Source: Haliclystus octoradiatus (taxonomy: Eukaryota > Cnidaria > Staurozoa > Stauromedusae > Haliclystidae). Taken from it: 64,000 bases of DNA. The notes under the pieces were generated by a model. The model saw only the letters and a program-made list of their open reading frames with translations. It was not told the origin of the DNA and ran no database searches. A program made the translations under genes and the position numbers. Positions 29,301-35,300 of the stretch are shown here, piece after piece. Numbering within the stretch: the stretch's first letter is position 1; each line of letters begins with the position of its first letter. Location: positions 9,407,751-9,471,750 of the forward strand of contig OU744447.1 in NCBI GenBank assembly GCA_916610825.1, written 5' to 3'.

Positions 29301-32300
29301 ATTTTGGAGATCGCGTTACTATCATCAGAGAGTCATAGTTATAGTTTTTGTCAAATCATTTTATACTGTTATAATTGTAAATTCTACACATTGTATATTT
29401 TATTAAATAGTGTAATAGTGAAAGTTTATTATTAATACATTTAAACATACAAATCAAAATCATATTATATCTTAACAATTATTTTATGTGTATTCCTAAT
29501 CAGTCCTGTGAAATAAAGTGATATAAAACTTATCAGGATAATTTGGAAATACACCCCAAATAAACATAGTGGAAACATAATGAAGTTTTGATTTTATCTT
29601 TATGTTTGACTTATATTAATTAACTGGTATATGACAATCACTCAATCTAGAATATTTTCCATTTCCTGTACAAACTCTCCTTTCAATCATTTTGTTTACT
29701 TGAAGTTTTTGTGTCGTTTCGGAGTATTATTCACTAAAGTTATAAGACAAGTTTTTATAATTGTAAGACTTGTATGCAGATACTGAGTAAATTCGAAAGT
29801 CATTCAAACTTTCATTCCATCGAATCTAAATACAATATTGTAGTTTTAGAAATTGTCGACTGTCATTTATAAATTATTAGATTATACTAAATAATAATAC
29901 ATTATTCGTTATTGAAATATGCAACAAACGTACAAACATGACCTTTAATGAATTATAACCATTAAACAAAAATGATTACACAAGCTATTGTAAATTAATA
30001 TTTTTGGTACATTATTCCCCGTGTTATATTTTTACCAAAGCCTTACGATCTGCGATCTAGATTCAGATTTTGAAAAAAATCACGGTCAACTGCACTTGTC
30101 ACGGCTATAATTATCTTAAAATTTCACAAGTGACGGGATCTCTAAACAAGTGACGGGATGTCCGAACATGTAGGGCGATCTCAAAAACAAGTAACGGGAT
30201 CTCCAAACAAGTAGCGCGAATTCTGAAAGAAGTAACGGGATCTCCGAACAAGTAACGCGATCTCATAAACAAGTACCGCGCCGAACAAGAAGTAGTAGTG
30301 AGCCTTTTGGCACTTCATAGTTATAACAGGTTAGACTGTACATGTATATGCTGAATATTTTCTTTTCACATGATTAAACAAACAATTTGTTTCTGTTTTC
30401 TAGCTTTACAAGAAGATACCGCATTTGATTGATGTTTCTTGGATAACAGAACATCTAAGAGCAGGTACGTGAGATGATTGTAAAACGTTTATATGTATCA
30501 AATACCTTTTACGTTTTGTTTGTGCTATATGTAGCTTCTCGATAAGTGTAGCTATTCGATCCCACAAGAATAGGGTCATGCAATCTTAAATCGCAGAAGG
30601 ATGAAGCAAATGCAGAAGAAAATCAATATTTTTCTTGTTTATAGGTCAAACATCAACAAAAATTTGGATTAAAAATTAAAAAAATGTTTGAGTTCATGAA
30701 CTGTTCATGAATTTGTTTTGAACTGTCCATGAAAATCAATGATAACTATTCATGTACAATTATTGAACTTTACGAACATTCATGAACTGTTCATGAATAC
30801 CATAGACAGTACATCAACAGTTTGTTAAATGGCCAAATGATTGTTCATGTACTTATTTACATGGACTGTTTGTTTAGGTTCATGAAAATTGAGTCATTCA
30901 ACATTCATGAACAGTTTTCAAAATAATATAATATGATGTTGAAGGCTAATGGCCAGAAACATACACTTGTCTGCTGCTAAATAATATAATATAATTTAAT
31001 ATAAATTTTAATATGTCATAGCTAAAGGTTGAAAAAATAAAATAAAAAATTTGAGCAGAATGAAAATTAATACAATAAAGTCAAATAAGGACATTAATAG
31101 AAAATAATTTTTAATCAAGAAATTAACGTAAAACGAACAGAACATACGGCACAAGTAGCATTTTTGCAGGCTCAAAGCTGTTATATAGCAGTCGCGTCTA
31201 TTATATTATTGTTATTATTATTATTATTATTATTATTATTATTATTATTATTATTATTAATATTATTATTATTATTATTATTATTATTATTATTATTATT
31301 ATTATTATTATTATTATTATTATTATTATTATTATTATTATTATTATTATTATTATTATTATTATTATTATTATTATTATTATTATTATTATTATTATTA
31401 TTATTATTATTATTATTATTATTATTATTATTATTATTATTATTATTATTATTATTATTATTATATAAATAGAGGAGTCAAAGACAACACATTTTGTTAC
31501 TGTAACTTGAAGTTTCACGCTTTATTGCGATCATCAGACAGTTAAAACTAGATTATCTAATTTTAACTGTCTGATGATCGCAATAAAGCGTGAAACTTCA
31601 AGTTACAGTAACAAAATGTGTTGTCTTTGACTCCTCTATTTATATTTACAGCTCTGTCAACAGACATTGAGCACTGTTTTACTGCTATTGGATAATATTT
31701 ATTATTATTATTATTATTATTAATAATAATGGTGATAGATCAAAGAAAACACATTCTTTACTGTAACTCCAAGTTTCACGCTACTGCGAGAATGTGTTTT
31801 CTTTGATCTATCACCATTATTATTATTTACCGCTCTGCCAAATGTTGACATTGAGCACTATTTTGTCTGCTATTAGATAAACCTATACTTATTATATTAT
31901 TTATATTATTATTATTATTATTATTAATAAAATTTATGTTTATCTAATAGCAGATAATATAGGGCTCTATGTCTTCATTTGACAGAGCGGTAAATAATAA
32001 TAATATATGGCGAAAGAGTCAAAGAATACACATTCTTTACTGTTACTCAAGTTTCACGCTTTTCACAGCGATCTTCAGACAGATTTTTTACTCAATGAAA
32101 AATATACATGATATCTACGTTCTATGATAAACTCTCCGTAATGCTGCTTTCTATTGTTTAATTAATACAATGCTATTGTTATTGCTATTGTTAATACAAG
32201 TGGTAGAAAAATGTGATGGTTTCCTTTATTCTCAGTAAATGATTATTTAGTTATGTTTTTGATTTATTAAAATTGGACAGGTAATATTTATTTTCGTGAC

Positions 32301-35300
32301 GACATTTGGATATTAATTCAGTTTTTTTGTCTATTATTGGTTCTTTTGCGCATATAATATGATATTTTTCCAAGAGGCATAAATGGCATTTTTTTGAGAT
32401 GTTGTTGTATGCTTTTGCATTAGCGATGGCTGACCATTCGATTTTGTATGTGATGTTTTTGTCTTTTAAATCCCAAACGTGTTTGGATAGTTGTGTGCTA
32501 GTGTTGTATTTTCTGTGTTTGAGTGTTGCCTTGTGTTGCGTGTAGCGTTGTTTGAACGTGCCTTCCGTCAACCCAATGTAGCTCTGTCCTTCTTGGTCAA
32601 ATGGAGTAGTGACGTTTGCTTTATAGATAATACTTTTCATTTGGCATTTGTTGTTGAAAGGGCATAAGTTTTTGTATCTACAGTTGCATTGGTTGGTGTT
32701 AGTTGTGGTGTTTGTTGTCGAATTGATTATTTTATTGTTATGGCTCTTTAGGATTGAATTCATGTTATTTGTGCAACTATAGCTGACTTTGATTGTGTTG
32801 AGATTGAAAATCTTGTTTAATTTGTTCGATTTTGGGAAGTGTTTTTTTATTAAGTTAAGGAACGTACGACCGATGTTAGTTTTCACGCTCTTGTTGTAGG
32901 GTGGATTGAACCATATGGCTTTTCTTGATCGGCATTTTCTATTGTTGTTTAATGGTGTTTCTCGTGGATTGTATTTTAGGTGCGTATCGTGTCCGCTTTT
33001 TCTCAAAGCGTCAGCGTATGGTTCTTTACTGTTCTCGAATATTGTGGAGTTAGTGGATAAATCAGATAGTCTTTGATTAATAGCTGTTGGTATTTGTTTT
33101 AGTATATTTGGCGGGTGGTTGGAGTTGATGTTAATGTATAATGGTTGGTCGTTAGGCTTTCGATATGGCTGGTATGTGTCAGTGTTCAAGTTAAATGTTA
33201 GGTCTAAGAAGTCAATTACCTTTAAGTTTGATTTTGTCGTTATATTTAGTCCAATGTCTTTGAATTGTTTGATTATTTTCTTTCGGAGTCTTTCTGCCTG
33301 TGTGCCTGATTTATTCTTCAGGATTGCGATACCGTCGTCTCTGTAGAGCCCTACGTTCCCGTTCCCTAAAATGTTGCTTATTTTTTGTAAGATGAATAAT
33401 CCGACCAGTTCACACACCTCAGCGCCGTCATAGCTGCCCATAGTGACATCAAATAGGCTGTTGCTTTGCTTTGCTCAATTAGATACAAAAACTTATGCCC
33501 TTTCAACAACAAATGCCAAATGAAAAGTATTATCTATAAAGCAAACGTCACTACTCCATTTGACCAAGAAGGACAGAGCTACATTGGGTTGACGGAAGGC
33601 ACGTTCAAACAACGCTACACGCAACACAAGGCAACACTCAAACACAGAAAATACAACACTAGCACACAACTATCCAAACACGTTTGGGATTTAAAAGACA
33701 AAAACATCACATACAAAATCGAATGGTCAGCCATCGCTAATGCAAAAGCATACAACAACATCTCAAAAAAATGCCATTTATGCCTCTTGGAAAAATATCA
33801 TATTATATGCGCAAAAGAACCAATAATAAACAAAAAAACTGAATTAATATCCAAATGTCGTCACGAAAATAAATATTACCTGTCCAATTTTAATAAATCA
33901 AAAACATAACTAAATAATCATTTACTGAGAATAAAGGAAACCATCACATTTTTTTACCACTTGTATTAACAATAGCAATAACAATAGCATTGTATTAATT
34001 AAACAATAGAAAGCAGCATTACGGAGAGTTTATCATAGAACGTAGATATCATGTATATTTTTCATTGAGTAAAAAATCTGTCTGAAGATCGCTGTGAAAA
34101 GCGTGAAACTTGAGTAACAGTAAAGAATGTGTATTCTTTGACTCTTTCGCCATATATTATTATTATTATTATTATTATTATTATTATTATTATTATTATT
34201 ATTATTATTATTATTATTATTATTATTATTATTATTATTATTATTATTATTATTATTATTATTATTATTATTATTATTATTATTATTATTATTATTATTA
34301 TTATTATTATTATTATTATTATTATTATTATTATTATTATTATTATTATTATTATTATTATTATTATTATTATTATTATTATTATTATTATTATTATTAT
34401 TATTATTATTATTATTATTATTATTATTATTATTATTATTATTATTATGGTCAACGTATCTACCTTTCATAGCTGGCTGTTAGATACCGGTTTCACTGTA
34501 AAAATGAAATAGTATGAGTAATATGCTTCCTTCTTCTGAAATTTTGCCTTGTATAATCTTTGGTAGAATGAAATTAAGTATTTATCCTTTTTTACCTGTT
34601 CAGCTGGAGCGTATTCATCTATCGTCAGCCTGATGTTATATGCTGCATTGAAACGGGATCCTAAAGGTGAAGGTCTTCACTCGTATAAATATCAAGAACA
34701 AAACTTAATCAATCCAGAGACACAGAGCATTGTGAAAGCAAGGTAAGAATTAGTCCATATTTCTTTATTGGCGTTAACTGAATATTTAACTGAGTTCTAA
34801 GAAGTTCTAAGTTCTGAGTAACTGAATAATGGTGTGCGAATCTAATCTGATCTGATCTGATTCAGATTGATTTTTTAGCTTTCAGATTGACATGTTGGAT
34901 TAAATCAAATCTTGAGAAAAAGTATACTGTATATTGTGTTGCAATTTTTACTGTGATTAAAGTGTACAGTATATATAGTTTTGGGGGTACAACAGGTTTA
35001 GTAGAATTTTTTTTCTTTTCGTTCATGTCATTGTTACATTTTCGTATAGGGCAACTCTTTCCGTTAAAATTGACCTTAAGTATGGTATGCTCTACCACCA
35101 CAAGAGAATTTAACAATGATGTTCGGCCGACAATGCTTTGTTTATGTTTCTACACGGATAACGAAGGACAAGATCGCTTCATGTTTTGAAACCGCCAGCT
35201 ACTTTTTTTATTGTATAACATGTACAAAATGATATAAACCTTTAATGTTGTATATTTTCCCTTTTTAACACTTTTCTTGTGAAGTACATCAGCAGGGTTA

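Follow-up and report, generated by a model that had tools for sequence, protein, structure and literature searches.

A 64,000-nucleotide stretch of the genome of the staurozoan Haliclystus octoradiatus (contig OU744447.1, positions 9,407,751 to 9,471,750; hereafter the window) contains repeated hammerhead ribozyme motifs in the ends of insertions that resemble Penelope-like elements (PLEs), some of them apparently within the gene NUP155. This locus raises the question of whether these motifs are working ribozymes and, if so, which RNA they cut. The comparisons described here suggest that the minimal type I hammerheads of related PLE families probably cut in vivo, and that genomic copies beginning at the predicted cut site would have been made on cleaved RNA.

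Correctly spaced CUGANGA and GAAAC boxes were found at 31537(-), 31571(+), 32078(-) and 34082(+), with additional copies at 15329(+), 60634(-), 60671(+), 60886(-) and 61915(+). A first-pass annotation had described the boxes, their spacing and stems I, II and III near 31490..34125, and its description was correct when coordinates and sequence were re-read. It had also placed three compensated stem variants in this range; all three are real, but the third (stem II UGC/GCA, stem I UUGU/ACAA) lies outside it, at 60886(-) and 61915(+). Families were named as F1 (core CTGAAGA, stem II CGCU/AGCG; window copies 32078 and 34082), F2 (core CTGATGA, stem II CGC/GCG, loop AATAAA; 31537 and 31571), F3 (stem II UGC/GCA; 60886 and 61915) and F5 (loop CTCG, GCAAAC after the cut; C1:462315). 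Matches to the pattern CTGANGAN{4,20}GAAA numbered 16 in the window as compared to a shuffled mean of 2.48 and a largest shuffled count of 6. Hammerheads complete with stem III and a cut triplet account for nine of the 16; two others re-read copies already counted, and the remaining five are without the other parts of the motif. Only one of these five, at 11742, has a correctly spaced GAAAC; stem III is absent and this match was rejected as chance. As far as sequence can tell, the window motifs were confirmed as hammerheads of the minimal type I class, located at the ends of PLE insertions.

Genomic copies that begin at the predicted cut

In the 262-Mb genome (33 contigs), a relaxed hammerhead pattern gave 6,812 matches (3,229 + 3,583) as compared to 49 (26 + 23) for the reversed control. 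Whether copies pile up at the cut site was posed as a question before they were first compared. If reverse transcription begins in the tail, as was demonstrated in vitro for an internal site of the anole element (PMC11167929), the distal end of a copy records the end of the template or a cDNA stop. A sample of 161 tails with an exact 20-nt motif (i.e. 104 F1, 45 F3 and 12 F2, with 40 of 77 regions sampled for F2 and F3) was compared with a reference, and 5' ends were numbered from 0, the base that directly follows the predicted cut, with plus values upstream. The hammerhead was kept in 141 tails by script (140 of the 161 once L164- was set aside) and was absent from 21 (i.e. 20 by script and L164- by eye). 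By our reading, 11 of these 21 hammerhead-less copies, from nine loci, start at the predicted cut (6 F1 and 5 F3). The script alone assigned position 0 to 8 of its 20 hammerhead-less copies, one of which (C1:2271456+) arose by chance and was not counted.

For F1, the hammerhead was present in 91 of the 104 copies and absent from 13, of which 6 begin at nucleotide 1.1 by our reading (C1:7648703+, C1:9397813+, L091-, L133+, L133- and L113-), four of them from the script's walk. Among the 45 F3 copies, six lacked the hammerhead by script in addition to L164-, and five begin at the cut by the same reading (L157-, L158+, L158-, L159+ and L164-), three of them by script. Outside the 161, four further copies whose motifs are imperfect likewise begin at the cut. 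When F1 tails were counted genome-wide at three positions, requiring three non-matching bases upstream and, at the last position, a longer match, 23 were found at the cut as compared to 5 at two bases downstream of it and 1 at three bases upstream. A second class of end was observed among the 91 hammerhead-bearing F1 copies: 34 end at +51 to +53 (i.e. 16-18 nt upstream of the core), a peak coinciding with an initiator (Inr)-like tcATTGAG, and 38 extend to the end of the reference.

As read from these genomic 5' ends, transcription would start 16-18 nt upstream of the core, placing the ribozyme at the extreme 5' end of the transcript. Reverse transcription would start at a tail site downstream of the ribozyme. 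A cDNA reaching the RNA start would yield a copy with a complete ribozyme, and a cDNA made on self-cleaved RNA would halt at nucleotide 1.1 and yield a ribozyme-less copy starting precisely at the cut. A pair of such cDNAs, one begun at a long-tail and one at a short-tail site, would then be joined head to head. Cleavage in vivo therefore seems to occur, yet most of the sampled copies appear to derive from uncut RNA. A wider reading, for which we hold belief and doubt in equal measure, is that a PLE-filled genome provides a 5'-end map of the copied RNAs. Such a map would record that the hammerhead cuts in vivo, that transcription begins at a site 16-18 nt 5' of the core, that cut RNA still serves as template with a product devoid of ribozyme and promoter, and that two cDNAs from different sites enter each insertion; cleavage may in this way throttle the element. 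A test based on the ends of genomic copies requires nothing beyond a genome assembly and is repeatable in any PLE-rich species. In those passages of the literature that were searched, a body outside which the primary 2014 and 2017 papers lie, no report was found of genomic copies starting at a PLE hammerhead cut.

Paired insertions, tails and junctions

The structure of the insertions bears on how two cDNAs might be joined. Insertion A (31463..31697, limits approximate) is a head-to-head pair of F2-type copies with a short tail on the left, running into (TAT)n, and a long tail on the right. Its arms (91 nt, 99% complementary, with 1 nt between them) both begin ATCTA, 16 nt upstream of the core, and carry hammerheads at 31496..31548 (-; core 31537) and 31560..31612 (+; core 31571), which scored 21.8 and 21.4 bits, respectively, against the Rfam model HH9, below threshold in both cases. 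Insertion B (31721..31890, limits approximate, read by eye) is a head-to-head pair with arms of 37 nt (100% complementary); the left arm is cut within the hammerhead, the right arm consists of tail only and the long tail lies on the right. Insertion C (31930..34167, left limit approximate) comprises a PLE body and an inverted 5'-truncated copy, with the long tail on the left, the short tail on the right and arms of 688 nt (100% complementary); hammerheads lie in its left arm at 32038..32088 (-; core 32078) and in its right arm at 34072..34125 (+; core 34082). The cuts predicted by the first-pass annotation, after U31604 in the right arm of A and after A34116 in the right arm of C, agreed with the re-read motifs. 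At the short-tail ends of A and C are (TAT)n arrays, 31199..31464 (89 units) and 34155..34448 (98 units), respectively, and the flanks of insertions are AT-rich. In the few copies compared, the phase of (TAT)n looks family-specific, as if the array were templated and not a pre-existing target.

Insertion C contains an open frame of 407 aa (32254..33474, -), the 3' part of a PLE-like open reading frame (ORF) with homologues in other loci, and the C-terminal part of this frame is present in the inverted copy (33457..33909, +; 98% identical over 145 aa). Its YRDD and YIG..R..H motifs are presumably the signatures of a reverse transcriptase and a GIY-YIG endonuclease. No match was obtained for the PLE-like ORF in Pfam, PDB or profile searches, including those for the endonuclease, and a lone profile match at E 9.7 was attributed to chance. 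With the profile searches empty, the PLE label rests on these motifs together with the architecture. In at least three families (i.e. F1, F3 and a family at C1:463945 and C1:465380), a homologous ORF is followed downstream by a hammerhead.

Elsewhere in the window, an F1 head-to-head pair near 60.6 kb carries hammerheads in its left arm (60589..60644, -) and right arm (60661..60714, +), with a long tail on the left and a short tail on the right. An F3 pair (60841/61958) has its left hammerhead at 60846..60896 (-) and its right one, downstream of a PLE-like ORF, at 61905..61953 (+). By eye, the F1 pair seems to be nested inside the long tail of the F3 insertion (60440-62040). A further hammerhead at 15319..15371 (+) has a decayed inverted partner on its left.

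Head-to-head pairing prevailed among same-family neighbours within 2 kb (similarity of at least 0.85; first 100 matches listed): 16 of 19 were head to head, 2 tandem and 1 tail to tail. One long and one short tail were observed in 46 of the 49 head-to-head pairs in which both tails were readable, two short tails in 2 and two long tails in 1; one further pair was left out for a short read. Counted singly, 92 tails were long and 92 short. In the window this rule holds for A, C, the F1 pair near 60.6 kb and, by eye, B, and the F3 pair is the exception, with the only two long tails among the 49 pairs. The rule of one long and one short tail places a clear constraint on models of PLE insertion. The pairs could alternatively stem from self-priming of a single cDNA, without two separate starts, a route proposed in 2013 for Adineta vaga Penelope with an antisense template in the passages of PMC3846280 concerned; that template is compatible with the present data. 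Arms are often near-identical (at least 0.99 in 18 of 33 pairs) and several pairs are palindromes, as self-priming would produce, whereas the tail sites at which the arms end differ in the 46 pairs noted above. The likeness of F1 arms within pairs was not above that between pairs (13 pairs), so that this comparison decides nothing about self-priming. Taken together, self-priming is a doubtful explanation.

Ends were also mapped at tail-tail junctions. For F1, 18 loci gave 10 distinct strings and 20 arms, located at -4 (2), -3 (4), -2 (3), 0 (8) and +1 (3), i.e. 11 at 0/+1 and 9 at -4 to -2. For F3, 26 loci gave 19 distinct strings and 38 arms, located at -2 (5), -1 (4), 0 (11), +1 (3), +3 (5), +4 (5), +7 (4) and +12 (1). 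The F1 ends are sharp and the F3 ends mixed. Two F2 junctions, with gaps of 8 and 9 nt, were compatible with two cut ends and were not counted. By eye, the fillers between two cut-start arms at C4:13718326 and C4:23992105 look tail-derived, as by template switching.

These junctions bear on the possibility that the hammerheads are present by descent and that ends at nucleotide 1.1 reflect a sequence preference of end joining or of reverse transcriptase stops, not cleavage. F1, F2 and F3 all begin ACA at nucleotide 1.1, the commonest F1 junction is readable as a 2-nt overlap, junction arms at -4 to -1 are common and F3 has additional ends upstream of the cut, all of which such a preference could accommodate. 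A stop at a folded stem I would, however, be expected before the ACAG strand (-4) and not after it, and three copies (L091-, L157- and L113-) start at the cut with no partner in the ~220 nt read. In F5, in which the cut is followed by a G (GCAA), 5 copies were still found at the cut as compared to 1 two bases downstream, although these numbers are small. F1 and F3 alone leave room for an end-joining bias for ACA; F5, with few copies, argues against one, and we consider this explanation of the ends unlikely.

Several observations nevertheless weigh against cleavage in vivo as the source of the cut-start copies. Counting four of these copies was a matter of judgement: in L133- and L113- the match continues one or two bases past the cut, L159+ has one mismatch and L158- was scored +3 by the script, though its base beyond the cut does not match. 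None of the 12 F2 copies begins at the cut, the one that lacks a hammerhead beginning elsewhere. One of the eight F1 arms at 0 (C1:38148914) continues as the hammerhead of another subfamily, F3 ends fall also at +3/+4 (10 of 38 arms), +7 (4 of 38) and +12 (1), and 2 matches were also returned by the second F5 pattern when reversed as a control. Several loci share a junction string (9 of the 18 F1 loci have one in common, and among the 26 F3 loci one string occurs at 6 and another at 3), so that the loci may not all be independent, though arms were counted on distinct strings. In the sections of Frangieh et al. (PMC11167929) that concern the anole element, RNA-seq had no reads starting or ending at the cut and dead ribozymes left insertion in vitro unaffected; the mostly uncut templates deduced here agree with this normal insertion of ribozyme mutants.

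Ribozyme structure and the host gene

Preservation of the ribozyme fold was assessed from the core, the stems and database models. Three helices, with stem I open and a stem III of 3 bp, make up the motif, which sits just within the ends of the insertions. The columns of the core, CUGANGA...GAAA with A15.1-U16.1, were invariant in 69 sequences, although the search patterns themselves demanded most of them. The cut triplet was GUH, with A, U and C at H17 in 68, 29 and 3, respectively, of the first 100 matches listed, in agreement with the NUH rule. The first-pass annotation had argued for covariation, and this claim was upheld with all 69 distinct sequences (4 more of 73 were dropped because too long a segment had been taken as stem III). 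Two-sided changes were counted in 55 cells as compared to 19.9 in shuffles and 2 to 18 in slid controls, 85.1% of cells were paired as compared to 80.4 shuffled, and the covariation score was 0.222 as compared to 0.141 shuffled and 0.036 to 0.101 slid, for a set collected in part with a pattern fixing some stem II bases and with shuffles that ignore relatedness. The number of pairs with two-sided change (6 of 11; shuffled 5.6) and of pair types (15; shuffled 14.0) was not above the shuffles. All two-sided changes fell in stems I and II, and stem III, being nearly invariant, gives no support; an earlier pair count on 48 of the 69 sequences agreed with the full count.

A G-C pair at 10.1-11.1, adjoining the core, is usual but not essential in type I hammerheads. 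Among the first 100 matches listed this usual pair was not the prevailing one, with U·U in 71, U-A in 10, A-U in 7 and G-C in 6, and U·U was also present in the variants named by the first-pass annotation. Pairing at this position was no better than shuffled (21 of 76 unique strings as compared to 19.1). With stem II left free by the pattern, pairs 10.2, 10.3 and 10.4 were formed in 83, 95 and 94, respectively, of the same 100 matches, and in 200 of 228 cells of the 76 unique strings (shuffled mean 184.0, maximum 193). Folding of single motifs exceeded shuffled sequences in only 1 of 4 tests (z -0.47, -2.49, 0.19 and -0.01). The first-pass annotation had proposed a search with an Rfam hammerhead covariance model, and this fell short: no family reached its gathering threshold in a scan of the whole window. 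The best-scoring hammerhead, RF02275 Hammerhead_HH9, was far under its curated threshold of 52 bits, with 21.8 bits in the window and 22.8 bits at locus L021, in relaxed-E-value scans that covered part of the window and six loci. MicroRNA matches that outscored HH9 in the window were also below threshold, sit on palindromes and were discarded.

The absence of an Rfam match at threshold, the U·U beside the core in most copies and the weak folding scores would suit inactive relics maintained only through copying. Such relics are very improbable in view of the covariation in the stems, the preservation of the core across families (albeit demanded by the search patterns), the copies ending at the cut site and an axolotl hammerhead that, in the part of PMC7229834 describing it, cleaves with U·U at the base of stem II, and does so better as a dimer. 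A tandem array at C1:565989-569650 (L015-L019) was also observed, in which the 53-bp unit is a hammerhead-like segment with core CTTATGA or CTGATGA.

The placement of hammerhead copies within NUP155, as claimed by the first-pass annotation, is supported by plus-strand exons at 34606..34740 (E 0.003), downstream of the insertions, and 39760..39909 (E about 1e-10); a third candidate exon (35631-35807) matched only at E 1. Exon 34606-34740 aligns near residue 926 of human NUP155, and the exons preceding it would therefore be expected upstream of the insertions; none was confirmed there, and the frame in which a 20-residue stretch at 30403 had been read contains a stop. The hammerhead in sense at 31571 belongs to the right arm of the 91-nt inverted repeat, the RNA of which folds as one hairpin (-144.7 kcal/mol) with the hammerhead buried, and the sense copy at 34082 lies in the 688-nt arm, of which a perfect inverted copy (31993-32680) is transcribed earlier. 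The suggestion that these copies act on NUP155 pre-mRNA is not supported: action there is unlikely, since the transcript carrying either sense copy also contains, 5' of it, the complementary sequence. Although two copies lie in sense within the gene, regulation of or damage to NUP155 by these ribozymes is hardly credible given those perfect or near-perfect complements, the antisense orientation of 2 of the 4 hammerheads there and their membership of a dispersed family of thousands.

Other features were recorded in the window. Three arrays of 41-bp repeats lie near the insertions (28076-28225, 29214-29320 and 30126-30275), the third inverted relative to the first. An ORF at 53371-53904 (-) contains what we take to be MORN-like repeats, and one at 4531-5268 (-) presumably resembles an N-terminal acetyltransferase.

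Comparison with known systems

Hammerheads in PLEs are already known as a kind. Minimal type I PLE hammerheads were described by Cervera and de la Pena in 2014 and by Luense et al. in 2017, as related in passages of two reviews (PMC7761336, PMC6155905). The present motifs share with them the core, a very short stem III, a location in pseudo-long terminal repeats (pseudo-LTRs) and thousands of copies per genome. They differ, as far as those passages go, in that stem II mostly begins with U·U and that most close neighbours of one family are head-to-head pairs; genomic copies with 5' ends at the cut are absent from the same passages.

The architecture resembles that of Adineta vaga Penelope, for which the relevant parts of PMC3846280 describe inverted pseudo-LTRs, mostly head to head, a tail that is optional on one inverted end, TATA and Inr-like promoter motifs and AT-rich targets. 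That element, unlike the present families, is few-copy, and the word hammerhead is absent from the text in those parts. The U·U at the base of stem II is shared with the axolotl retrozyme hammerhead HHR_Amex2, which, in the portion of PMC7229834 devoted to it, cleaves weakly as a monomer and better as a dimer; unlike the PLE ends described here, it sits in tandem retrozyme repeats.

The passages of Frangieh et al. (2024; PMC11167929) on Poseidon PAc of Anolis offer further likenesses. The anole element has a hammerhead near its 5' end, reverse transcription from an internal site downstream of it was shown in vitro, two adjacent start sites are used for reverse transcription, and both DNA strands are cleaved and extended at ATT. 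The hammerhead of Poseidon PAc remains uncleaved without the element's protein and RNA-seq had no cut ends there, whereas in H. octoradiatus genomic copies begin at the predicted cut.

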